Shown here: positions 30,878-52,765 of the stretch, piece after piece
How the letters are laid out: the number at the start of each line of letters is the position of its first letter
How positions within the stretch are numbered: the stretch's first letter is position 1
DNA from: Sedimentitalea arenosa
Lineage (GTDB): Bacteria; Pseudomonadota; Alphaproteobacteria; Rhodobacterales; Rhodobacteraceae
Direction: 5' to 3'
Length of the DNA: 64,000 nucleotides
Assembly (NCBI RefSeq): GCF_016428585.1
Contig: NZ_JAELVR010000011.1
Span: 62,001-126,000, forward strand
Notes under the pieces: model-generated
The model's database searches: none
The model's input: the letters and a program-made list of their open reading frames with translations, nothing else
What the model was told of the DNA's origin: nothing
Translations under genes and position numbers: made by a program

Positions 30878-31657
30878 TTATATGGTGCGCTCGACCATCA
30901 TCTTCTTGATCTCGGCGATAGCCTTGGCCGGGTTCAGACCCTTGGGGCAGGTCTTGGCGCAGTTCATGATCGTATGGCAGCGATACAGCTTGAACGGATC
31001 TTCCAGGTCGTCCAGCCGTTCGCCGGTCGCCTCGTCGCGTGAATCGATGATCCAGCGATAGGCATGCAGCAGCGCCGCCGGGCCCAGATACCGGTCGCTG
31101 TTCCACCAATAGCTCGGGCAGGCGGTCGAACAGGACGCGCACATGACGCATTCATACAGACCGTCAAGCTTCTTGCGGTCTTCGATCGACTGCTTCCACT
31201 CCTTCGCCGGGCGATTGGTCTTGGTTTCAAGCCACGGCATGATGCTCGCATGCTGGGCATAGAAAAGCGTGAGGTCCGGGATCAGGTCCTTGACCACTTC
31301 CATGTGCGGCAGCGGATAGATCTTCACGTCACCCTTGATCTCGTCCAGCCCGTAGATGCACGCCAGCGTGTTGATCCCGTCGATGTTCATCGCGCAGGAT
31401 CCGCAGATGCCTTCGCGGCAGGACCGGCGAAAGGTCAGGGTGGGGTCGATCTCGTTCTTGATCTTGATCAGCGCGTCCAGAACCATCGGGCCGCACTTGT
31501 CCATGTCGATGAAATACGTGTCGACGCGCGGATTCTGTCCATCATCCGGGTTCCAGCGGTAAATCTGGAACTTGCGGATATTGGTCGCGCCCTCGGGCTT
31601 GGGCCACGTCTTGCCGGTCGTGATGCGGCTGTTCTTGGGCAGGGTCAGTTGAACCAT
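30878..31657 (-). CDS. sdhB: Succinate dehydrogenase iron-sulfur subunit
   Basis: The 259-aa electron-transfer subunit of complex II. The [2Fe-2S] site is [15 protein letters not shown] near residues 80-94. The [4Fe-4S] and [3Fe-4S] sites are [16 protein letters not shown] near 172 and [17 protein letters not shown] near 229. It sits on the cytoplasmic face with SdhA. It is separated from sdhA by a glycosyltransferase gene and 184 bp of non-coding sequence. Confidence 0.97.
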
Positions 31658-33131: not shown

Positions 33132-34937
33132 TCAGAACGTCCGCGCCTTGGGCGCGATCTTCTTCAGTTCGATGCCGCCCTCGGATTCGGTCGTCAGCGG
33201 GTCGACAACGACGGGGCGATAGGACAGCGAAACGTCCTTGCCGTTGACACGGCTGATCGTGTGCACGCGCCAGTTCTCGTCGTCGCGCTTCTCGAAATCC
33301 TCGTGCGCGTGGGCGCCGCGGCTTTCGTGCCGCGCCTCGGCCCCGGCGATGGTCGCCAACGCGTTCGGCATGAGGTTGGTCAGTTCCAGCGTCTCCATAA
33401 GGTCGCTGTTCCAGACCAGGCTGCGGTCGGTGACCTTGAGATCGCCAAGCCGCTCGGCGATGGCATCCATCTTCTGTACGCCCTCGGCCAGCGTCTTGGA
33501 GGTGCGGAACACGGCGGCGTCGGCCTGCATCGTCTTCTGCATCTCCAGCCGCAAGTCCGCGGTCGGTGTTCCCCCATCGGCGTAGCGCAGCCCGTCGAAG
33601 CGGTCAAAGGCGGCATCGACAGAGGCCTGGTTCAGCCTGGGATTGGGCGCATCGGCGTCGACCACCTTGCCCGCGCGGATCGCCGCGGCGCGCCCGAACA
33701 CCACGAGGTCGATCAGAGAGTTCGACCCCAGCCGGTTGGCCCCGTGCACCGAGGCACAGCCTGCCTCGCCCACGGCCATCAGGCCCGGCACCACGGCGTT
33801 CTGGTCCTTCTCGGTCGGGTTCAGCACCTCGCCCCAGTAGTTCGTCGGAATGCCGCCCATGTTGTAATGCACGGTCGGCAGAACCGGGATCGGTTCTTTC
33901 GTCACGTCGACACCGGCAAAGATCTTGGCGCTTTCCGAGATGCCCGGCAGGCGTTCATGCAGCGCCTCGGGCGGCAGGTGCGACAGATTCAGGTGGATGT
34001 GATCGCCATCCGGCCCGACTCCACGTCCTTCGCGGATTTCCATCGTCATCGACCGGCTGACATAGTCCCGCGGCGCCAGATCCTTGTAGTTGGGCGCGTA
34101 GCGTTCCATGAACCGCTCGCCCTCGGAATTGGTGAGGTATCCGCCTTCGCCCCGCGCGCCTTCGGTGATCAGGCAGCCCGACCCGTAGATGCCGGTCGGA
34201 TGGAACTGCACGAATTCCATGTCCTGCAAGGGCAAACCGGCCCGAGCCACCATACCGCCGCCATCGCCGGTGCAGGTATGCGCCGAGGTCGCGCTGAAAT
34301 AGGCGCGGCCATAGCCGCCGGTGGCCAGCACGACCATCTTGGCGTTGAACACGTGCATGGTGCCGTCATCCAGCTTCCAGCAGACGACACCCTGGCATTG
34401 CCCGTCCTCGGACATGATCAGGTCGATGGCGAAATACTCTACATAGAACTCGGCCTTCTGCTTCAGGCTCTGTCCATAGAGCGTGTGCAGGATCGCATGG
34501 CCGGTGCGGTCGGCGGCGGCGCAGGTGCGCTGCACCGGCGGGCCTTCGCCGAATTCAGTGGTGTGGCCGCCGAAGGGGCGCTGATAGATCTTGCCCTCCT
34601 CGGTGCGCGAAAACGGCACGCCGTAATGCTCCAGCTCATACACCGCCTTGGGCGCTTCGCGGGCGAGGTATTCCATCGCATCGGTATCGCCCAGCCAGTC
34701 CGACCCCTTCACGGTGTCGTACATGTGCCACTGCCAGTTGTCCGGCCCCATGTTCGACAGCGACGCCGCGATGCCGCCCTGCGCGGCCACCGTGTGGCTG
34801 CGGGTGGGGAACACCTTGGTCACGCAGGCGGTGCGCAGGCCCTGTTCGGCCATGCCGAGCGTCGCGCGCAGACCGGCGCCCCCGGCCCCGACAACAACCA
34901 CGTCATATTCATGTGTTTCGTATTCGTAAGCAGCCAT
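33132..34937 (-). CDS. sdhA: Succinate dehydrogenase flavoprotein subunit
   Basis: The 601-aa catalytic subunit of complex II, oxidising succinate to fumarate with covalent FAD. The dinucleotide fold [15 protein letters not shown] is at residues 14-28, the FAD-attachment His in [10 protein letters not shown] near 47, the substrate loop in HTCTGDGGG near 220, and [11 protein letters not shown] near 400. It is followed by the inserted glycosyltransferase gene rather than sdhB. Confidence 0.98.
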
Positions 34938-34986: not shown

Positions 34987-35358
34987 TTAGAGCGCGATCC
35001 GCGCGATGGCAAACAGACCGGTGGCCGCCGCCGCGTAGGACAGGCAGATGACGCCGATGATCAGCACCTTCTGGGCCAAACCATGGACGTAGTCCTCGAT
35101 CAGAACCTGTGCGCCGTCCTTGAAGTGCATGAACCCGACCACGATGGTCAGGGCGGCGACGATGGCCGGGAAGGGGCGGGCGAAATAGGCGACCACCTCG
35201 GCATGGGGCCTGCCCAGCATCGACCCGACCATGAAGACGAACAGCGGGACCAGAACCAGCAGCCCGACCGAACTGACCTTCATCGCCCAGGCGTGGGCGG
35301 TTCCGGATTTCGCCGAGCCCATGCCCTCGGCGCGTTTGCGATCCGTGAGATAATGCAT
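34987..35358 (-). CDS. sdhD: Succinate dehydrogenase membrane anchor subunit
   Basis: A 123-aa membrane anchor with three helices. The heme/quinone region includes HFKDGAQVLIEDYVHG near residues 79-94, with a ligand-candidate His. It lies 10 bp after sdhC and 49 bp before sdhA, in the normal order. Confidence 0.92.
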   Translation of the reverse strand: MHYLTDRKRAEGMGSAKSGTAHAWAMKVSSVGLLVLVPLFVFMVGSMLGRPHAEVVAYFARPFPAIVAALTIVVGFMHFKDGAQVLIEDYVHGLAQKVLIIGVICLSYAAAATGLFAIARIAL

Positions 35359-35368
35359 TGATCGCTCC

Positions 35369-35755
35369 TTACTGGATGGCGAAGAGGGTGACCGCGGTCA
35401 GGATGAACGACCCGGCGATGACGGCATAGCCGAGCTTGTAGGCGGTCGGGATGTCGAGACCGACCGCGTTGTCCCAGATCAGGTGACGCACTCCGGCCAG
35501 CAGGTGATACCAGAGCGCCCAGACCGACGCCGCCATGATCAGGTCGCCGATCAGCGACGTGATCACCGCGTCCGCCAGCTCGAAATATTCCGGCGAGGTC
35601 GCCGCGGCGAGGAACCACCACACGATGAGCAGCGATCCCACCAGCAGCGCATTGCCGGTGATCCGGGTCAGGATCGACGTGATCGAGGTCAGCTGCGGGC
35701 GATAGATCGTCAGGTGCGGCGAAAGCGGGCGATTGCTCTTCGTGGCTCCGGCCAT
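35369..35755 (-). CDS. sdhC: Succinate dehydrogenase cytochrome b556 subunit
   Basis: A 128-aa anchor subunit. The N-terminal signature RPLSPHLTIYRPQLTSITSI precedes three helices; the likely heme-ligand His lies in WYHLLAGVRHLIWD near residues 82-95. The start at 35755 (MAGATKSNRP) has GAAGGA upstream; the longer open frame upstream is not coding. A TATAAA in the leader (35789-35794, minus strand) may be the -10 box. Confidence 0.95.
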   Translation of the reverse strand: MAGATKSNRPLSPHLTIYRPQLTSITSILTRITGNALLVGSLLIVWWFLAAATSPEYFELADAVITSLIGDLIMAASVWALWYHLLAGVRHLIWDNAVGLDIPTAYKLGYAVIAGSFILTAVTLFAIQ

Positions 35756-35884
35756 GGTCGGTCCTTCCGTCAAAAACTCTTGGTTGGTTTTATACCTTTT
35801 TTTCCGTCTGTCACCCGCGCGGGAGGGGGAGAGGCGCGGTTTTTTGGCGCGGGTGGACACAAAATTCGGCCGATTCACCATAAC

Positions 35885-35915
35885 TGTGATCACACGCTGG
35901 CAAGCCGTGATCACA
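35885..35915. promoter_or_regulatory. Double GTGATCAC operator upstream of sdhC
   Basis: TGTGATCACA at 35885-35894 and CGTGATCACA at 35906-35915 are two palindromes with centres 21 bp apart, two helical turns. The same pair with the same spacing precedes sucC at 42953-42985, and the second copies share the 15-bp string AAGCCGTGATCACAA. It lies 130-160 bp upstream of the sdhC start. Confidence 0.7.
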
Positions 35916-35956: not shown

Positions 35957-36622
35957 TCACTCCGGCAGGGCCGCCGATTGCTTCGTGACCTCGCGCAGCA
36001 GCTTGCGACGGATTCGCGCCGGGTAATCCCGAAAGCTCGCCGCAGTTTCCACAAAGGCGCCCTCGCCGGTGATCACGTTCTCGAAGAAATACGCGGTCAG
36101 ATCCGGCTCGCTCGCCTCGATCGCGAGGGCGTTGACGGTGACCTCGGCGCGGTTCAACTGCGTATGCACCGCACCCGGCGCGACACCCTCATTGGACAGC
36201 CCGTCCCCGGACAGGTCGATCAACCGGCGCGCACAGTGATCAACCCGCTCGAAGGCCGGCAGCACGAACTGCAGCGCCTCGCCGATGGCGGTGGAATAGT
36301 TGCGCCAGGCGCGCGGCGCGGCCGCAACCTCCGCGGCGAACCGGTCAAGCGCCGCGAAACTGTCGATCCGGGTCCAGGGGAGCGTCACCTCCTGCCGCGA
36401 CGAGCCGGTCCATTGCACCAGCATCACCTCGGCCCGCGCGCGCACCAGCGCTTCCGAGATCACGCCATCGCGCAGCGCCTCGGCCAATCCGTCCATCTGC
36501 AATCGATATTCCTCGGCGTCGACCGATCCCGATACATCGACCGCCAGGGCCAGCGCCAGGTCGCAGCCCCGTCCGGGCAGCGGCAGCATCAGAACGATCA
36601 GGGCGGCGAAGACCAGGCGCAT
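35957..36622 (-). CDS. DUF1194 / von Willebrand A-type secreted protein
   Basis: A 221-aa protein with a signal peptide (MRLVFAALIVLMLPLPGRG) and a VWA-like fold. The metal-ion adhesion motif is DVSGSVDAEEY near residues 29-39, and LIDLSGDGLSNEG near 138 holds the third-site residues. The family is alphaproteobacterial and uncharacterised. An in-frame ATG five codons upstream is possible. It lies upstream of and collinear with sdh, separated by the double operator. Confidence 0.82.
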   Translation of the reverse strand: MRLVFAALIVLMLPLPGRGCDLALALAVDVSGSVDAEEYRLQMDGLAEALRDGVISEALVRARAEVMLVQWTGSSRQEVTLPWTRIDSFAALDRFAAEVAAAPRAWRNYSTAIGEALQFVLPAFERVDHCARRLIDLSGDGLSNEGVAPGAVHTQLNRAEVTVNALAIEASEPDLTAYFFENVITGEGAFVETAASFRDYPARIRRKLLREVTKQSAALPE

Positions 36623-36670
36623 GGCCCACCCTAGCAACCAGCCCCCGCCCCGCCTATCCCGTTGTCCGGG

Positions 36671-42092: not shown

Positions 42093-42851
42093 ATGTTCGG
42101 AAAAGTAACCGCGGCCGCCTTTGCGGCAGCACTCCTGTGTACCGGGGCAAACGCAGCATCCGTTTCGTGGTCGTCTTACAGCAGCGCGAATCTGGCGCAG
42201 GCCAAGACGGACCGTGCGGCCCTTGATGTCGACTTCCAGGTCGCCTTCGAGGATTTCGAAAGCTTCAGCCCGGTCCTGGGCAACACGGGCACGGGATCGT
42301 TCACACCGCTGAACACGGCCGTCGGCGTGTTCACGACAACGCCCGGCGCGACCTGCGGCGGGTCGTGCAACCAGCCCAATGACCAGAGCCTCGTTCGCAA
42401 CGCCTCGTCTTTCGGGCGCTACAACACGACCGATTCCGGCGCCCAGTGGCTCGACAGCAATGACAACGCGGCGATCAACCTCGCCGGGTCGGCCGGATCG
42501 AACTTCGACTCGATCAGCTTCTTCCTGACCGATATCGACGATGTGGGTCTCGTCACGTTCAACATCGACGTCGATGGCCAGAACTTCGATATCGCGGCCG
42601 ACATCTTCAACGGCCTGAAACAGCAGAACGGCGACCTGTTCCTCGTGCGGATCGAACTCGGCGGACCGGTGGCGTCCTCCGCCCTGTCGCTGAACATCGA
42701 TACGGGTGACGGATTCGGCCTCGATGATGTGCGCCTTGGAAGCAGCACGGCCCCGGGGCCCTCGCCGGTTCCGGTCCCGGCCTCGCTGCCTCTGCTGCTC
42801 GGTGGCCTGGGCGCGATCGCCTGGGCGAAGCGTCGGCGCAAGGCGGCCTGA
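42093..42851 (+). CDS. Secreted protein with VPLPA/PEP-CTERM-type sorting tail
   Basis: A 252-aa exported protein. It has a signal peptide (MFGKVTAAAFAAALLCTGANA), a beta-rich middle with a Cys pair (TCGGSCNQP near residue 87), and a C-terminal sorting region: PVPVPASLPLLLGGLGAIAWA followed by the basic end KRRRKAA. That tripartite tail is typical of exosortase/CTERM substrates, targeted to the envelope and often surface-related. The exosortase itself is not in the window. It is monocistronic, framed by terminators. Confidence 0.82.
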   Translation: MFGKVTAAAFAAALLCTGANAASVSWSSYSSANLAQAKTDRAALDVDFQVAFEDFESFSPVLGNTGTGSFTPLNTAVGVFTTTPGATCGGSCNQPNDQSLVRNASSFGRYNTTDSGAQWLDSNDNAAINLAGSAGSNFDSISFFLTDIDDVGLVTFNIDVDGQNFDIAADIFNGLKQQNGDLFLVRIELGGPVASSALSLNIDTGDGFGLDDVRLGSSTAPGPSPVPVPASLPLLLGGLGAIAWAKRRRKAA

Positions 42852-42951: not shown

Positions 42952-42986
42952 TTTGTGATCACGCATTTTAAAGCCGTGATCACAAA
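42952..42986. promoter_or_regulatory. Double GTGATCAC operator upstream of sucC
   Basis: The outer arms TTTGTGATCACG (42952-42963) and CGTGATCACAAA (42975-42986) are perfect inverted repeats, and each contains its own GTGATCAC palindrome. Palindrome centres are 21 bp apart, as upstream of sdhC. It lies about 110-140 bp before the sucC start. Confidence 0.75.
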
Positions 42987-43093
42987 TGTCGCTTTTCCGC
43001 CGAAAATTCTAGCCTGCGTCAATATTTCGTTTATCGGCTATGTAAAGTGGAGCGTATACGCGCTCCAATCGCAGCAAGACGGGACAGCATTCG

Positions 43094-44287
43094 ATGAACA
43101 TCCACGAATATCAGGCCAAAGCGCTCCTGCGCAGCTACGGTGCTCCGGTTTCCGACGGACGCGTGGTTCTCCGCGCCGAGGAAGCCAAGACCGCCGCCGG
43201 AGAAATGGACGGACCCGTCTGGGTGGTCAAGGCACAGATCCACGCCGGCGGCCGCGGCAAGGGCAAGTTCAAGGAGAGCGATGCCGGCGACAAGGGCGGC
43301 GTGCGCCTGACCAAGTCGGTCGAGGAAGCCGCCGAGGAAGCCCGCAAGATGCTGGGCCGCACCCTCGTCACCCACCAGACCGGCCCCGCCGGCAAGCAAG
43401 TCAACCGCATCTATATCGAAGACGGCAGCGGCATCGAGACCGAGATGTATCTCGCCCTCTTGGTCGACCGCCAGACCAGCCGCGTCAGCTTCGTCTGCTC
43501 GACCGAGGGCGGTATGGACATCGAGGAGGTCGCCGCCAGCACCCCCGAGAAGATCCTCAGCTTCTCCGTTGATCCGGCCACCGGCTACCAGCCCTTCCAC
43601 GGCCGCCGCATCGCCTTCAACCTCGGCCTGACCGGCAAGCAGGTGAAGCAATGCGTCAGCCTGATGGGCACGCTCTATCGCATGTTCATCGAGAAGGACA
43701 TGGAGATGCTCGAGATCAACCCGCTGATCGTGTCGGACAGCGGCGACCTCAAGTGCCTCGACGCCAAGATGGGCTTTGACGGCAACGCGGTCTACCGCCA
43801 CGCCGAAATCGCCGAACTGCGCGACACCACCGAGGAAGATCCCAAGGAGCTCGAAGCCTCCAAGTTCGACCTGAACTATATCGCACTGGACGGCGAAATC
43901 GGCTGCATGGTCAACGGCGCGGGCCTCGCCATGGCGACGATGGACATCATCAAGCTCTACGGCGCCGAGCCCGCCAACTTCCTTGACGTGGGCGGCGGCG
44001 CGACCAAGGAAAAGGTCACCGAGGCGTTCAAGATCATCACCTCGGACCCGCAGGTCAAGGGCATCCTGGTCAACATCTTCGGCGGCATCATGCGCTGCGA
44101 CGTCATTGCCGAGGGCGTGGTCGCCGCGGTCAAGGAAGTCGGCCTCAAGGTCCCGCTGGTCGTCCGGCTCGAAGGCACCAATGTCGACAAGGGCAAGGAG
44201 ATCATCAACACCTCCGGCCTCGACGTGATCGCCGCCGACGACCTCAAGGACGGCGCGCAGAAAATCGTGAAGGCCGTCAAAGGCTGA
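43094..44287 (+). CDS. sucC: Succinyl-CoA synthetase beta subunit (ADP-forming)
   Basis: The 397-aa ATP-grasp subunit that activates ADP or GDP in succinyl-CoA synthetase. It starts [16 protein letters not shown], has the nucleotide-binding [14 protein letters not shown] near residue 46, and the CoA/succinate-side [16 protein letters not shown] near 303. It leads the operon sucC-sucD-DUF805-sucA-sucB and onward, behind the double operator. Confidence 0.97.
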
Positions 44288-44345
44288 TCCTGGGGTGGGT
44301 GCCAACCCACCTTCCCCAAAGCAATATTTCAAGGAGAACGCCAAG

Positions 44346-45227
44346 ATGGCAGTCCTCATCGACGAAAACACCAAAGTCATCTGCCAGGGCCTGACCGGCT
44401 CGCAGGGCACCTTCCACACCGAACAGGCCATCGCCTACGGCACCAAGATGGTCGGCGGCGTGACGCCGGGCAAAGGCGGCATGGAACATATCGGCCTGCC
44501 GGTGTTCAATTCCGTGCACGAAGCCAAGCACGCCACCGAAGCCAACGCCACGGTCATCTACGTGCCGCCCCCCTTCGCGGCCGACAGCATCCTCGAGGCG
44601 ATCGACGCCGAGATGGAAGTCATCGTCGCCATCACCGAAGGCATCCCGGTTCTGGACATGATGCGCGTCAAGCGCGCGCTCGAAGGCTCCAAGAGCCGCC
44701 TGATCGGCCCCAACTGCCCCGGTGTCATCACGCCCGATGCCTGCAAGATCGGCATCATGCCCGGCCACATCCACAAGCGCGGCTCCTGCGGCGTCGTCTC
44801 CCGCTCGGGCACGCTCACCTACGAGGCGGTCAAGCAGACCACCGATGTCGGCCTCGGCCAGTCCACCTGCGTGGGCATCGGCGGCGACCCGATCAAGGGC
44901 ACCGAACATATCGACGTGCTGGAATGGTTCCTGGCCGATGACGAGACCCACAGCATCATCATGATCGGCGAAATCGGCGGCTCCGCCGAGGAAGAAGCCG
45001 CCCAGTTCCTCGCCGACGAGAAGAAGCGCGGCCGCTGGAAGCCGACCGCCGGCTTCATCGCCGGGCGCACCGCCCCTCCGGGCCGGCGCATGGGCCACGC
45101 GGGCGCCATCGTCGCCGGCGGCAAGGGCGGCGCCGAGGACAAGATCGAAGCGATGAAATCCGCCGGCATCGTCGTCGCGGAAAGCCCCGCCAGCCTGGGC
45201 GAGGCGGTCCTGGAAGCCATAGGATAA
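44346..45227 (+). CDS. sucD: Succinyl-CoA synthetase alpha subunit
   Basis: The 293-aa subunit carrying the phosphohistidine. The CoA-binding start is [19 protein letters not shown] near residues 11-29. The active-site His lies in [13 protein letters not shown] near 245, and [10 protein letters not shown] is near 121. The start at 44346 ([11 protein letters not shown]) has AAGGAGA upstream; the longer in-frame start adds non-conserved residues. Confidence 0.97.
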
Positions 45228-45231
45228 CGCC

Positions 45232-45774
45232 ATGGGCTTTGCGCAGTCGGTCAAGACCTGTCTCCGGAAATACGTGACCTTCTCGGGTCGGGCCTCGCGC
45301 GCCGAATACTGGTGGTTCGCGCTGTTCATGATCCTCGTCAGCCTGGTGACGGGCCTGATCGACTTCGCCCTCTTCGGTCAGGCGGTCAGCGTGACCACCG
45401 AGACCGGCACCGCCGTCGCCGCCGAAACGCAGGGGCCGTTGCAATCGATCGCGGGCCTCGCGCTGTTCCTGCCCCATCTCGCCGTCGCCTGGCGGCGGAT
45501 GCATGACAGCGGGCGCAGCGGGCTCTACGCGCTGTTTCCGCTGCTGCTGATCCTCGGCGCCGGCGCGGTGCTGCTCTTCGGCATCGGCATCGCCGGCTCG
45601 TTCGAGCATGGCGGCACGATGGACCTGCTGTTCACCCGTGCGACCCTGCTGGTCTCGATCCCGGCGCTGATCCTGCTGCTGATCTCGCCGCTTCTGATGC
45701 TCTGGTGGCTGACACGGCCCAGCCAACCCGGCCCAAATGCCTATGGCCCCAACCCGCATGAGGTTCCGTCATGA
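45232..45774 (+). CDS. DUF805 membrane protein
   Basis: A 180-aa membrane protein with four to five helices. The family signature is the start GFAQSVKTCLRKYVTFSGRASRAEYWWF; RRMHDSGRSGLYAL near residue 84 is the second. DUF805 has no known biochemical role. It sits between sucD and sucA and overlaps sucA by four bases (ATGA), so it is translated with the 2-oxoglutarate dehydrogenase genes. Confidence 0.9.
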   Translation: MGFAQSVKTCLRKYVTFSGRASRAEYWWFALFMILVSLVTGLIDFALFGQAVSVTTETGTAVAAETQGPLQSIAGLALFLPHLAVAWRRMHDSGRSGLYALFPLLLILGAGAVLLFGIGIAGSFEHGGTMDLLFTRATLLVSIPALILLLISPLLMLWWLTRPSQPGPNAYGPNPHEVPS

Positions 45775-48728
45775 CCGACCAATCCCCCAACGACCAGTTC
45801 CATGCCTCGAGCTTCATGCAGGGGCACAACGCCGAGTATCTCGAACAGCTCTACGCCCAGTATGCCGGCAACCCGGACGCGGTCGATGACGCCTGGGCCG
45901 AATTCTTCCGCGCCCTCGGCGATGCCGAAAGCGACGTCCAGGCCGAGGCGCAGGGCCCCAGCTGGGCGCGCCGCGATTGGCCGCTCGTGCCCGCGGATGA
46001 CCTGACCGCGGCGCTGACCGGCGAATGGCCCGACGCCGAGGCAAAGGCCGCCGGCGGCAAGATCGCCGCCAAGGCCGCCGAAAGCGGCGTCGCGCTGTCC
46101 GAAGACCAGATCAAGCGCGCCGTGCTCGACAGCATCCGCGCCCTGATGCTGATCCGGGCCTACCGGATCCGCGGCCATCTCGTCGCCGATCTCGACCCGC
46201 TGGGGATGCGCGACGAGACCCCGCATCCCGAACTCGATCCCCGCACCTACGGCTTCTCCGACGCCGACATGGACCGGCCGATCTTCATCGACAACGTGCT
46301 CGGCCTGCAGGTCGCATCGATGCGCCAGATCGTGGACATCGTGAAACGCACCTATTGCGGCACCTTCGCGCTGCAATACATGCACATTTCCAACCCCGAG
46401 GAAGCCGGCTGGCTCAAGGAGCGGATCGAGGGCTTCGGCAAGGAAATCAACTTCACCCGTGAAGGCCGCAAGGCGATCCTGAACAAGATGGTAGAGGCCG
46501 AGGGCTTCGAGAAGTTCCTGCATGTCAAGTTCATGGGGACCAAGCGCTTCGGCCTGGATGGCGGCGAAAGCCTGATCCCGGCGATGGAGCAGATCATCAA
46601 GCGCGGCGGCGCGCTCGGCGTCAAGGACATCATCATCGGCATGCCCCACCGGGGCCGCCTGTCGGTGCTGGCCAACGTGATGGCCAAGCCCTACCGCGCC
46701 ATCTTCAACGAATTCCAGGGCGGCAGCTTCAAGCCCGAGGACGTCGACGGCTCGGGCGACGTGAAATACCACCTCGGCGCCTCCAGCGACCGCGAATTCG
46801 ACGGCAACTCGGTACACCTGTCGCTCACCGCCAACCCCAGCCACCTCGAGGCGGTCAACCCGGTCGTGCTGGGCAAGGCCCGCGCCAAGCAGGACCAGAA
46901 CAACGATTCCCAGCGCACCTCGGTGCTGCCGATCCTGCTGCATGGCGACGCGGCCTTCGCGGGCCAGGGCGTCGTGGCAGAATGTTTCGGCCTGTCGGGC
47001 CTCAAGGGCCATCGCACCGGCGGCACCATGCATATCGTGGTGAACAACCAGATCGGCTTCACCACCGCGCCCCACTTCTCGCGCTCCTCGCCCTACCCGA
47101 CCGATATCGCGCTGATGGTCGAGGCGCCGATCTTCCACGTCAACGGCGACGACCCCGAGGCGGTGGTGCACGCCGCCAAGGTGGCGACCGAGTTCCGCCA
47201 GAAATTCCACAAGGACGTGGTCATCGACATCTTCTGCTATCGCCGCTTCGGTCACAACGAAGGCGACGAGCCGATGTTCACCAACCCGATCATGTACAAG
47301 CGGATCAAGACCCACAAGACGACGCTCAGCCTCTACACCGAGCGCCTCGTCAAGGACGGCCTGATCCCCGAGGGCGAGATCGAGGACATGAAGGCCGCCT
47401 TCCAGGCCCATCTGAACGAGGAGTTCGAGGCCGGCAAGGACTACAAGCCCAACAAGGCCGACTGGCTCGACGGACGCTGGTCGCACCTGAACCGCGAGGG
47501 CGAGGAATACGTCCGCGGCGAAACCGCCATCCAGCCCGAGACCATGTCCGAGATCGGCACCGCCCTGACCAGCGCGCCCGACGGGTTCCCGCTGCACCGC
47601 ACGGTGGCGCGCCTGCTCGAGTCGCGCGGCGAGATGTTCAAGTCCGGCAAGGGCTTTGACTGGGCCACCGGCGAGGCGCTGGCCTTCGGCTCGCTTCTGA
47701 CCGAAGGCTACCCGGTCCGACTCTCCGGGCAGGACGCGACCCGCGGCACCTTCAGCCAGCGCCACTCCGGCCTGATCAGCCAGGACACCGAGGAACGCTA
47801 CTACCCGCTCAACAACATCCGCGCCGGGCAGTCCAACTACGAGGTCATCGACTCGATGCTCAGCGAATACGCCGTGCTCGGGTTCGAATACGGCTACTCG
47901 CTGGCCGAACCCAACGCGCTGGTGCTGTGGGAAGCGCAGTTCGGCGATTTCGCCAACGGCGCGCAGATCATGTTCGACCAGTTCATCAGCTCGGGCGAAA
48001 GCAAGTGGCTGCGCATGTCGGGCCTCGTCTGCCTGCTGCCGCACGGCTATGAGGGCCAGGGCCCGGAACACTCCTCCGCCCGGCTGGAACGCTTCCTGCA
48101 GATGTGCGGCCAGGACAACTGGATCGTCGCCAACTGCACGACGCCCGCGAACTATTTCCACATCCTGCGCCGCCAGATCCACCGCTCCTTCCGCAAGCCG
48201 CTGATCCTGATGACCCCGAAGTCGCTGCTGCGCCACAAGCTGGCCGTGTCGGATGCCGAGGATTTCACCACCGGGTCGAGCTTCCACCGCGTGCTCTGGG
48301 ACGACGCGGAAAAGGGCCATTCCGACACCAAGCTGGTCGCCGACGACAAGATCAAACGCGTGGTGCTGTGCTCGGGCAAGGTCTATTACGACCTGCTCGA
48401 GGAACGCGACGCCCGCGGCATTGACGACATCTACCTGCTGCGGGTCGAACAGTTCTATCCGTTCCCGGCGATCTCGATGGTCAAGGAACTGGAACGCTTC
48501 AAGCAGGCCGAAATCGTCTGGTGCCAGGAAGAGCCCAAGAACCAGGGCGCCTGGACCTTCATCGAGCCCAACATCGAATGGGTGCTCGGCCGGATCAACG
48601 CCAGCCACAAACGGCCGGTCTATGTCGGCCGCGCCACCTCGGCCTCGCCCGCCACGGGCCTCGCCAGCCAACACAAAGCCCAACAAGAAGCGCTCGTGAA
48701 CGACGCGCTGACGATCGAAGGAAACTGA
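45771..48728 (+). CDS. sucA: 2-oxoglutarate dehydrogenase E1 component
   Basis: The 985-aa thiamine-diphosphate subunit of the 2-oxoglutarate dehydrogenase complex. Features are the N-terminal E2-docking start (NAEYLEQLYAQYAGNPDAV), IGMPHRGRLSVLANV near residue 290, the TPP/Mg site GDAAFAGQGVVAE with NNQIGFTT near 390-430, and GHNEGDEP near 500. Length is normal for the family. sucB follows three bases after its stop. Confidence 0.97.
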   Translation: MTDQSPNDQFHASSFMQGHNAEYLEQLYAQYAGNPDAVDDAWAEFFRALGDAESDVQAEAQGPSWARRDWPLVPADDLTAALTGEWPDAEAKAAGGKIAAKAAESGVALSEDQIKRAVLDSIRALMLIRAYRIRGHLVADLDPLGMRDETPHPELDPRTYGFSDADMDRPIFIDNVLGLQVASMRQIVDIVKRTYCGTFALQYMHISNPEEAGWLKERIEGFGKEINFTREGRKAILNKMVEAEGFEKFLHVKFMGTKRFGLDGGESLIPAMEQIIKRGGALGVKDIIIGMPHRGRLSVLANVMAKPYRAIFNEFQGGSFKPEDVDGSGDVKYHLGASSDREFDGNSVHLSLTANPSHLEAVNPVVLGKARAKQDQNNDSQRTSVLPILLHGDAAFAGQGVVAECFGLSGLKGHRTGGTMHIVVNNQIGFTTAPHFSRSSPYPTDIALMVEAPIFHVNGDDPEAVVHAAKVATEFRQKFHKDVVIDIFCYRRFGHNEGDEPMFTNPIMYKRIKTHKTTLSLYTERLVKDGLIPEGEIEDMKAAFQAHLNEEFEAGKDYKPNKADWLDGRWSHLNREGEEYVRGETAIQPETMSEIGTALTSAPDGFPLHRTVARLLESRGEMFKSGKGFDWATGEALAFGSLLTEGYPVRLSGQDATRGTFSQRHSGLISQDTEERYYPLNNIRAGQSNYEVIDSMLSEYAVLGFEYGYSLAEPNALVLWEAQFGDFANGAQIMFDQFISSGESKWLRMSGLVCLLPHGYEGQGPEHSSARLERFLQMCGQDNWIVANCTTPANYFHILRRQIHRSFRKPLILMTPKSLLRHKLAVSDAEDFTTGSSFHRVLWDDAEKGHSDTKLVADDKIKRVVLCSGKVYYDLLEERDARGIDDIYLLRVEQFYPFPAISMVKELERFKQAEIVWCQEEPKNQGAWTFIEPNIEWVLGRINASHKRPVYVGRATSASPATGLASQHKAQQEALVNDALTIEGN

Positions 48729-48731
48729 ACC

Positions 48732-50303
<1,572 letters not shown>

Positions 50304-51214: not shown

Positions 51215-51279
51215 TCTTCATCTTCGCGGAAATACTCCGGGGTGAGGCGCGCACGCGCCGAGGGGCGGAGCCCCTGTCC
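51214..51279 (+). repeat. Rhodobacterales-type intergenic repeat, copy C
   Basis: Right after the MAPEG stop the sequence reads TCATCTTCG..AAATACTCCGGGGT and then two hairpins, GGCGCG-CA-CGCGCC and GGGGC-GGA-GCCCC. The first 25 bases match the minus strand of the copy at 27001-27044. It lies between the MAPEG gene and lpd. Confidence 0.7.
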
Positions 51280-51376
51280 CGGCCCGCGCCATCGCTTTCG
51301 CTGCACACCGCGTATGTACGCGATATGCACGGCATGTGTACGCTTGGCACAGCCCGAATTCCCACAGGAGACTCCC

Positions 51377-52765
51377 ATGGCTAACTACGACGTCATCATC
51401 ATCGGTTCCGGCCCCGGCGGCTATGTCTGCGCCATCCGCTGCGCCCAGCTGGGCCTGAAAACCGCCTGCGTCGAGGGCCGCGACACGCTCGGCGGCACCT
51501 GTCTGAACGTCGGCTGCATCCCCTCCAAGGCGCTGCTGCACGCCAGCCACATGCTGCACGAGGCCGAACACAATTTCGCCGCAATGGGCCTCAAGGGCAA
51601 AAGCCCCTCCGTCGACTGGAAACAGATGCTCGCCTACAAGGACGACACCATCGGGCAGAACACCAAGGGCATCGAATTCCTGTTCAAGAAGAACAAGATA
51701 GACTGGATCAAGGGCTGGGCCTCGATTCCCGAGACGGGCAAGGTCAAGGTCGGCGACGACGTGCACGAGGCAAAGAGCATCATCATCGCCACCGGCTCCG
51801 AACCCGCCTCCCTGCCCGGCGTCGAGGTCGATGAAAAGACCGTCGTCACCTCCACCGGCGCGCTGGAACTGGGCAAGGTGCCGAAGAAGCTCGTGGTGAT
51901 CGGCGCCGGCGTCATCGGCCTCGAACTGGGCAGCGTCTATTCCCGTCTCGGCGCCGAGGTCACGGTGATCGAATATCTCGACGCCATTACCCCCGGAATG
52001 GATTCGGAAGTCCAGAAGACCTTCCAGAGAATCCTGAAGAAACAAGGGCTTGAATTCATCATGGGCGCGGCGGTCCAGAAGACCGAAACCCTGAAAACCA
52101 AGGCCAAGGTACACTACAAGCTCAGGAAGGACGACAGCGAACACGTGCTCGACGCCGACGTGGTGCTGGTCGCCACCGGACGCAAACCCTATACCGACGG
52201 GCTCGGGCTCGACGGTCTCGGCGTGACCCTCTCCAAGCGCGGCCAGATCGAAGTCGGCAAGGACTGGCAGACCAACGTCAAGGGCATCTACGCCATCGGC
52301 GACTGCATCGACGGCCCCATGCTGGCCCACAAGGCCGAGGACGAAGGCATGGCCGTCGCCGAACAGGTTGCCGGCAAGCACGGGCATGTGAACTACGGCG
52401 TCATCCCCGGCGTGATCTACACCCACCCCGAGGTCGCCAATGTCGGCGAAACCGAACAAACCCTGAAAGAACAAGGCCGTAACTACAAGGTCGGCAAGTT
52501 CATGTTCATGGGCAACGGCCGCGCCAAGGCCAATTTCGCCGCCGACGGCTTCGTCAAGATCCTCGCCGACAAGGAGACGGACCGCATCCTCGGCGCGCAT
52601 ATCATCGGCCCCAGCGCGGGTGAGCTGATCCACGAGATCTGCGTCGCGATGGAGTTCGGCGCCGCCGCCGAAGACATCGCCCTGACCTGCCACGCCCACC
52701 CGACCTATTCCGAGGCCGTGCGTGAGGCGGCCCTGGCCTGCGGCGACGGCCCCATCCACAGCTGA
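51377..52765 (+). CDS. lpd: Dihydrolipoamide dehydrogenase (E3)
   Basis: The 462-aa flavoenzyme reoxidising dihydrolipoyl arms of 2-oxoglutarate dehydrogenase. FAD loop [14 protein letters not shown] is at residues 7-20, the redox disulfide in [13 protein letters not shown] near 38-50, the NAD loop [22 protein letters not shown] near 175, and the His-Glu pair in [11 protein letters not shown] near 441. The start at 51377 has CAGGAG upstream. Linkage to sucAB argues that this E3 serves 2-oxoglutarate dehydrogenase. Confidence 0.96.

Follow-up and report, generated by a model that had tools for sequence, protein, structure and literature searches.

Paired palindromes upstream of sdhC and sucC in Rhodobacteraceae: a probable two-dimer operator of the GntR-type regulator AkgR

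In the window (the whole 64,000-nucleotide stretch of Sedimentitalea arenosa DNA analysed here), the operons beginning with sucC and sdhC are each preceded by two copies of the palindrome GTGATCAC, and the locus raises the question of which protein reads these pairs and what it does there. A first-pass annotation had described a pair with centres 21 bp apart inside a 12-bp inverted repeat before sucC and an equally spaced pair before sdhC. We found both as described: the copies start 21 bp apart at either site (Table 1), and the sucC pair is enclosed by perfect 12-bp arms (42952–42963 and 42975–42986). The distance from the pair, referred to below as the twin, to the start of the gene is 110 bp for sucC and 130 bp for sdhC. 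The earlier identification of the two operons was borne out by profile matches to sucC and sdhC. A VPLPA-CTERM protein gene (window 42093–42851, plus strand) intervenes between mdh and the sucC twin, so that sucC is separated from mdh here. A DUF1194 protein gene (window 35957–36637, minus strand) adjoins the sdhC twin, and its homologues are close to the sdhC twin in several of the family loci fetched.

Table 1. Predicted operator and promoter elements and the genes they precede (window coordinates)
Feature	Position	Strand	Basis or remark
distal AkgR palindrome (predicted), sucC twin	42955..42962	.	GTGATCAC
proximal AkgR palindrome (predicted), sucC twin	42976..42983	.	GTGATCAC
distal AkgR palindrome (predicted), sdhC twin	35907..35914	.	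GTGATCAC
proximal AkgR palindrome (predicted), sdhC twin	35886..35893	.	GTGATCAC
putative -35 GTGACA of sdhC	35809..35814	-	72 bp after twin (family mode ~60); inferred from sequence
putative -10 TAAAAC of sdhC	35787..35792	-	30-region consensus TAnnAA, N16 after GTGACA; inferred from sequence
putative -35 TTATCG of sucC	43031..43036	+	T-rich columns 48-50 bp after twin (39 regions); weaker than sdhC
putative -10 TATACG of sucC	43055..43060	+	weak
sdhC	35369..35755	-	TIGR02970, PF01127
sdhD	34987..35358	-	TIGR02968
sdhA	33132..34937	-	TIGR01816
sdhB	30878..31657	-	NF004616
sucC	43094..44287	+	NF001913
sucD	44295..45227	+	NF004230
sucA, 2-oxoglutarate dehydrogenase E1	45771..48728	+	NF006914
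sucB	48732..50303	+	TIGR01347
lpd, dihydrolipoyl dehydrogenase	51242..52765	+	TIGR01350

The window holds nine copies of GTGATCAC against 1.29 expected, a number reached in none of 100 shuffles. In the whole 3.98-Mb genome, the exact arrangement GTGATCAC-N13-GTGATCAC occurs twice only, before sucC (42955–42983) and before sdhC (35886–35914), and the runner-up N13 pairs elsewhere carry two mismatches. A string that had been cited as common to the two sites, AAGCCGTGATCACAA (AAGCC plus the palindrome), carries no weight as an argument, because it has opposite orientation relative to sucC and sdhC and because AAGCC belongs to the poorly conserved spacer. A scan of the genome for a wider regulon, using TTGTGATCACAA with up to two mismatches, returned 44 sites, four of which are the palindromes of the two twins. 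Among nine further sites of this type that were inspected, the one before akgR (see below) is alone in being clearly upstream of a gene with an exact core. Three (L264, L271, and L296) lie within long ORFs, and L259 (core GTGAACAC), L262, L297, L299, and L300 are not clearly gene-upstream with an exact core. L259 (G000:C22:257099-257110, TTGTGAACACAA) is one mismatch away from the symmetric consensus and is located upstream of a gene for a putative transporter substrate-binding protein, judged from the translation; it is a possible further AkgR-like site.

Conservation of the twin was followed through the family and the class. Of the 198 genomes drawn from the same family (197 genera), 175 contain an exact pair with a spacing of N0–26. 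In a draw from the class, with the spacing set to N11–14, the pair was found in 5/5 family members as compared to 5/380 genomes of other families, in agreement with the earlier view that the pairs did not arise by chance. We examined 85 twin-bearing loci (a single twin in each), of which the family contributed 80 and other families five; the loci are a non-random set, made up of the best matches of the search and of second sites for genomes among the matches listed. Among the 80 family twins, 75 stand before sucC, sdhC, or sucA, and every one of these has an N12 or N13 spacer: 39 are at sucC (34 N13 and 5 N12), 35 at sdhC (31 N13 and 4 N12), and one at sucA (G177, L302), between mdh and sucA-sucB. 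In that last genome the twin follows mdh and stands directly before sucA-sucB, and sucCD is absent from that place. Thus, the scan of relatives proposed with the first-pass annotation, which asked for clustering before sdhC and sucC, was strongly positive. For mdh, also named there as a possible target, the whole-genome scan revealed no exact twin here; one of the 80 family twins, from another genus, precedes fumC (G042, L099:1501-1529, N13). With this third twin, the pattern reaches the next TCA enzyme in one genus. Another of the 80 precedes akgR (G187, N5), and the remaining three lie inside long ORFs (N10 and N19) or overlap a short ORF (N23).

In an alignment anchored at the twin, the palindromes and the TTT/AAA at their edges were conspicuous, and the flanks were diverged; among the family members fetched, the spacer shows little conservation away from its edges. 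In Rhodobacter calidifons (L258:12610-12659), three copies of GTGATCAC precede sucC at exact 21-bp steps, forming an extended in-phase array. In a genome of another family (f15), an N13 twin (L076:992-1020) lies between a TonB-dependent-receptor-like ORF (from translation) and a GntR/FCD gene whose product is 30% identical to AkgR. A search allowing up to two mismatches, applied to the 23 twin-less genomes and to four twin-bearing genomes without akgR, gave matches in 24 of these 27; among the matches listed, they look scattered except in G040, where the sucC twin and the sdhC twin are both present, each with a single mismatch.

We take RSP_0981 of R. sphaeroides to be the gene named AkgR. In the available part of PMC4344238, RSP_0981 (GntR family) is the predicted regulator of sucCD, sdhCDA, and sucAB-lpd, while the available part of PMC6365646 cites GTGATCAC, secondhand, as a motif among AkgR sites and terms AkgR a transcriptional activator. 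The motif, the regulator, and the target genes are already known, and the present finding is an example of the AkgR regulon at the scale of the family. In our genome, akgR encodes protein P0001 (216 aa, G000:C23:14371-15018, on a contig other than that of sdhB), which has a GntR domain (PF00392, 2.2e-12) and an FCD domain (PF07729, 5.2e-17). It is one of ten FCD matches in the genome, and GTGATCAC stands directly before its start. The gene is near an rplT-like ORF (from translation). Orthologues of P0001 in the family are 71–94% identical among the matches listed, the protein itself aside. The orthologue of Cereibacter johrii, a congener of R. sphaeroides (now Cereibacter sphaeroides), is 79% identical and adjoins sdhB, in the order akgR, sdhB, sdhA, D, C, twin, mdh, second twin, sucCDAB. 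The R. sphaeroides locus tags, as given in the accessible text of the sources, are 0967 for sucC, 0968 for mdh, 0976 for sdhA, and 0979 for sdhB. RSP_0981 therefore falls at the place of the orthologue, because the tag order RSP_0979 (sdhB)/RSP_0981 matches the C. johrii order; P0001 is thus equated with RSP_0981 by gene order and tag numbers rather than by sequence alignment.

All 12 named genomes (chosen from 80) contain a twin, and all 12 contain an akgR orthologue; this set overlaps the family draw in at least two assemblies (G586 = G065 and G581 = G191, with identical coordinates). In the family draw, an akgR orthologue is present in 171 of 175 twin-bearing genomes and in 4 of 23 twin-less genomes (Fisher p 5e-19), with an orthologue cut-off of E<=1e-75 that was set after inspection of the table, where matches split at 3e-80 or better versus 2e-58 or worse. 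The twin-bearing genomes without an orthologue-grade akgR are G019, G033, G096, and G114 (91, 74, 77, and 100% complete, respectively); being 100% complete, G114 is an exception hard to blame on incompleteness. The twin-less genomes with akgR are G040, G147, G155, and G166. The single-mismatch twins of G040 account for the first, but not for the other three (73, 92, and 71% complete). No orthologue-grade akgR was detected outside the family in the class draw, where the best match listed had 43% identity. In other families, GTGATCAC lies within 250 bp upstream of 6 of the 13 FCD homologues examined (L308, L310, L314, and L316 from family f105, L322 from f43, and L076 from f15), so the palindrome seems to belong to FCD regulators of a broader clade, and its doubling ahead of sdhC and sucC to this family. 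The comparative data support the earlier claim of a shared TCA-cycle regulator with a two-dimer operator, and, as judged from the genomes compared, this regulator is very probably AkgR, a member of the GntR/FCD family.

Downstream of the sdhC twin, a GTGAC or TTGAC element was found in range in 30 of 35 regions, followed by TAnnAA at N16; no such element was seen in range in the other five. The combination GTGAC/TTGAC-N16-TAnnAA is a credible candidate for the sdhC promoter. Its first element lies 58–61 bp after the twin in 24 of the 30 regions, and at 49, 49, 70, 72, 79, and 81 bp in the other six. A family-wide search for a twin followed by N44–74 and GTGAC returned 128 rows, spread over 122 of the 198 genomes, with 103 rows at 57–62 bp. 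The 25 rows outside this range were checked for the gene that they face, with 20 places fetched; this check of the gene concerns the outliers rather than the whole main group of 103 rows. Removed were sucC sites (G169, G016, G123, and G146), rows of G005, G002, and G003 that face away from sdhC and have no sucC, sdhC, sdhD, or sucA on that side, a G000 row facing away from the window's sdhC, a G192 row (72 bp) likewise facing away from sdhC, and G100 (52 bp), which has a second GTGAC at 61 bp. The 15 outliers kept all face sdhC or sdhD and lack a main-group GTGAC; six are at 48–50 bp and nine at 69–72 bp. None of 300,000 random draws was as extreme as these 15 rows, and with none of the 25 rows dropped p was ~1e-4 at a period of 10.5, values that are too small because the rows come from related genomes and are not phylogenetically independent. 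The distances from the sdhC twin to its putative promoter thus form three groups one helical turn apart (about 49, 60, and 71 bp), with the window's sdhC, at 72 bp, in the far group. For sucC, a simple promoter model yielded no single clear −35/−10 pair, and only T-rich columns at 48–50 bp recur; these suggest, more weakly, that the sucC promoter may be about one turn closer to its twin than that of sdhC.

The site before akgR is single and differently placed. Of 42 orthologues, 38 carry GTGATCAC immediately ahead of the akgR start codon (30/30 best family matches and 8/12 named genomes); those without it there are L231, L233 (C. johrii), L235, and L237. The nearest TTGAC precedes the core by exactly 18 bp in 30 of the 38 regions, and in most the akgR start codon is 8–10 bp past the core. 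The core would therefore sit at the end of the −35/−10 spacer, with the start codon near the expected transcription start, which is a repressor-type position on a leaderless promoter. This geometry suggests that AkgR represses its own gene, whose promoter is apparently leaderless. An autoregulatory operator is common, though not obligatory, among GntR/FCD regulators. Our genome possesses this feature, but akgR autoregulation is not universal, since 4 of 42 orthologues are without the core; the 30/30 set consists of the closest relatives.

Several other accounts of the twin have to be weighed. Chance, or a generic GATC-containing repeat of no regulatory role, is scarcely credible: GTGATCAC does occur inside ORFs as well (e.g., L271 and L296), and single copies are common, but pairs of fixed spacing stand at two orthologous genes in much of the family while their flanks have diverged. 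It is very improbable that the site is used by CceR, a LacI-family protein with sdh and mdh among its R. sphaeroides targets. CceR (RSP_1663) is the predicted regulator of sdhCDA and mdh in the available part of PMC4344238, and succinate and 2-oxoglutarate dehydrogenase are listed in its R. sphaeroides regulon in the available part of PMC11323563; however, its predicted motif, [A/G/T]GTT-N6-8-AAC[A/C/T] (PMC4344238), is by inspection not matched by GTGATCAC. Quite improbable, too, is that the main reader of the twin is an AkgR paralogue, of the type of P0002 (38% identical, the closest in this genome), or some other GntR/FCD protein. The recognition regions of AkgR and the paralogue are nearly identical (MTPVREAIRRL and MTPAREAVRRL), and the motif, found before six of the 13 FCD homologues mentioned above, is not unique to AkgR. 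Used as a control with a cut-off of E<=1e-50, however, P0002 is present in only 91 of 175 twin-bearing genomes (and in 3 of 23 twin-less genomes, p 6e-4). Since P0002 also correlates weakly with the twin, part of the akgR co-occurrence reflects shared phylogeny; the association of AkgR with the twin is nonetheless much tighter. In addition, 9 of 10 paralogue upstream regions examined contain a different palindrome, TTTGATCAA, which is perhaps the paralogue's own operator. In L012, L238–L241, L243, and L318–L320, TTTGATCAA lies ~50–141 bp upstream of the paralogue; it is related to GTGATCAC, yet different.

The remaining account concerns not the identity of the protein but the sign of its action, with AkgR acting at the twins of sdhC and sucC as a repressor that a ligand releases, or as a dual regulator of the two genes. 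Repressors are frequent among GntR/FCD regulators, and the akgR site, which overlaps the inferred promoter, occupies a repressor position. The sdhC and sucC twins, however, stand clear of the inferred −35 elements, on their upstream side, and their distances are phased in the case of sdhC; AkgR is, moreover, named a transcriptional activator in the available part of PMC6365646. We therefore consider repression at the twin unlikely. The preferred reading, in which a pair of AkgR dimers on the twin would activate sdhCDAB and sucCD-sucAB-lpd while AkgR limits its own gene, appears highly probable as a whole. Its sites, positions, conservation, co-occurrence, and phasing come from sequence, and the activator role and GTGATCAC recognition come from the literature.

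According to the preferred reading, each GTGATCAC would accommodate one AkgR dimer, and, with centres 21 bp, or two helical turns, apart, both dimers would lie on the same face of the DNA and probably bind cooperatively. AkgR would then activate promoters with predicted starts ~90–130 bp downstream of the palindromes, presumably by contacting RNA polymerase. A cooperative dimer pair touching the polymerase from one face is suggested because the sites are symmetric and two turns apart, their spacing is fixed, their location is upstream of the promoter, and the distance changes by whole turns; these features fit the dimer-of-dimers arrangement on one helix face proposed earlier. The genes after sucC and sdhC probably share their transcripts, so that sdhCDAB and sucCD-sucAB-lpd, the enzymes from 2-oxoglutarate to fumarate, would be switched together, and the single GTGATCAC between the −35 and −10 elements of akgR would let AkgR limit its own level. 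The AkgR ligand is likely a TCA carboxylate, by analogy with FCD proteins and from the regulator's name. We also offer, tentatively and with somewhat more doubt than confidence, a stronger version, in which the dimer-of-dimers is obligate. Only an in-phase array of two dimers (N13 or N12) would then reach RNA polymerase, promoters would have evolved in jumps of 10–11 bp, there would be room for a third palindrome in phase (the case in Rhodobacter calidifons), and repression would need no more than the single akgR palindrome. This half of the cycle, from 2-oxoglutarate to fumarate (and on to malate where fumC takes part), would then form one cooperative switch, common to the family and with negative feedback built in.

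With these results, an orphan operator gains a likely named regulator, and the paired operator proves widespread in the family (175/198 genomes). The GntR-type family is better known for repressors than for activators, and the natural distance series (about 49, 60, and 71 bp) lends itself directly to experiments on the helical phasing of a GntR-type activator. No description of a twin operator for AkgR was found in the available parts of the literature searched (including PMC6365646, PMC11323563, PMC4419725, PMC7471390, PMC4344238, and PMC8920488), and PMC3849096 contained none of the terms sought. The paired, helix-phased layout, its family-wide spread, and the akgR operator may be new here, though the original AkgR paper may already contain the twin.

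The closest known system is the AkgR (RSP_0981) regulon of R. sphaeroides, which, as far as the accessible sources go, is alike in the core GTGATCAC, in the targets sucCD, sdhCDA, and sucAB-lpd, and in the GntR family of the regulator, while the 21-bp twin, the sdhC phasing, and the akgR operator are described here and may also be shown in the original paper. In our genome, akgR is on a contig other than that of sdhB and has the core before it, whereas in C. johrii it adjoins sdhB and the core is absent. PS417_07240, a GntR protein of the deoxyribonate cluster of Pseudomonas simiae, is 32% identical to AkgR and is a predicted binder of GTGATCAC, at −47 to −40 relative to its own start; it differs from AkgR in the genes concerned and in the palindrome being single (PMC6365646, available part). 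CceR (RSP_1663), of the LacI family, likewise has sdh and further genes of central carbon metabolism among its targets, but belongs to a different family and has a different motif. According to the available part of PMC11323563, its targets in R. sphaeroides include sdh, 2-oxoglutarate dehydrogenase, and fumarase. AkgR is therefore one of at least two inputs into the TCA-cycle genes of that organism.
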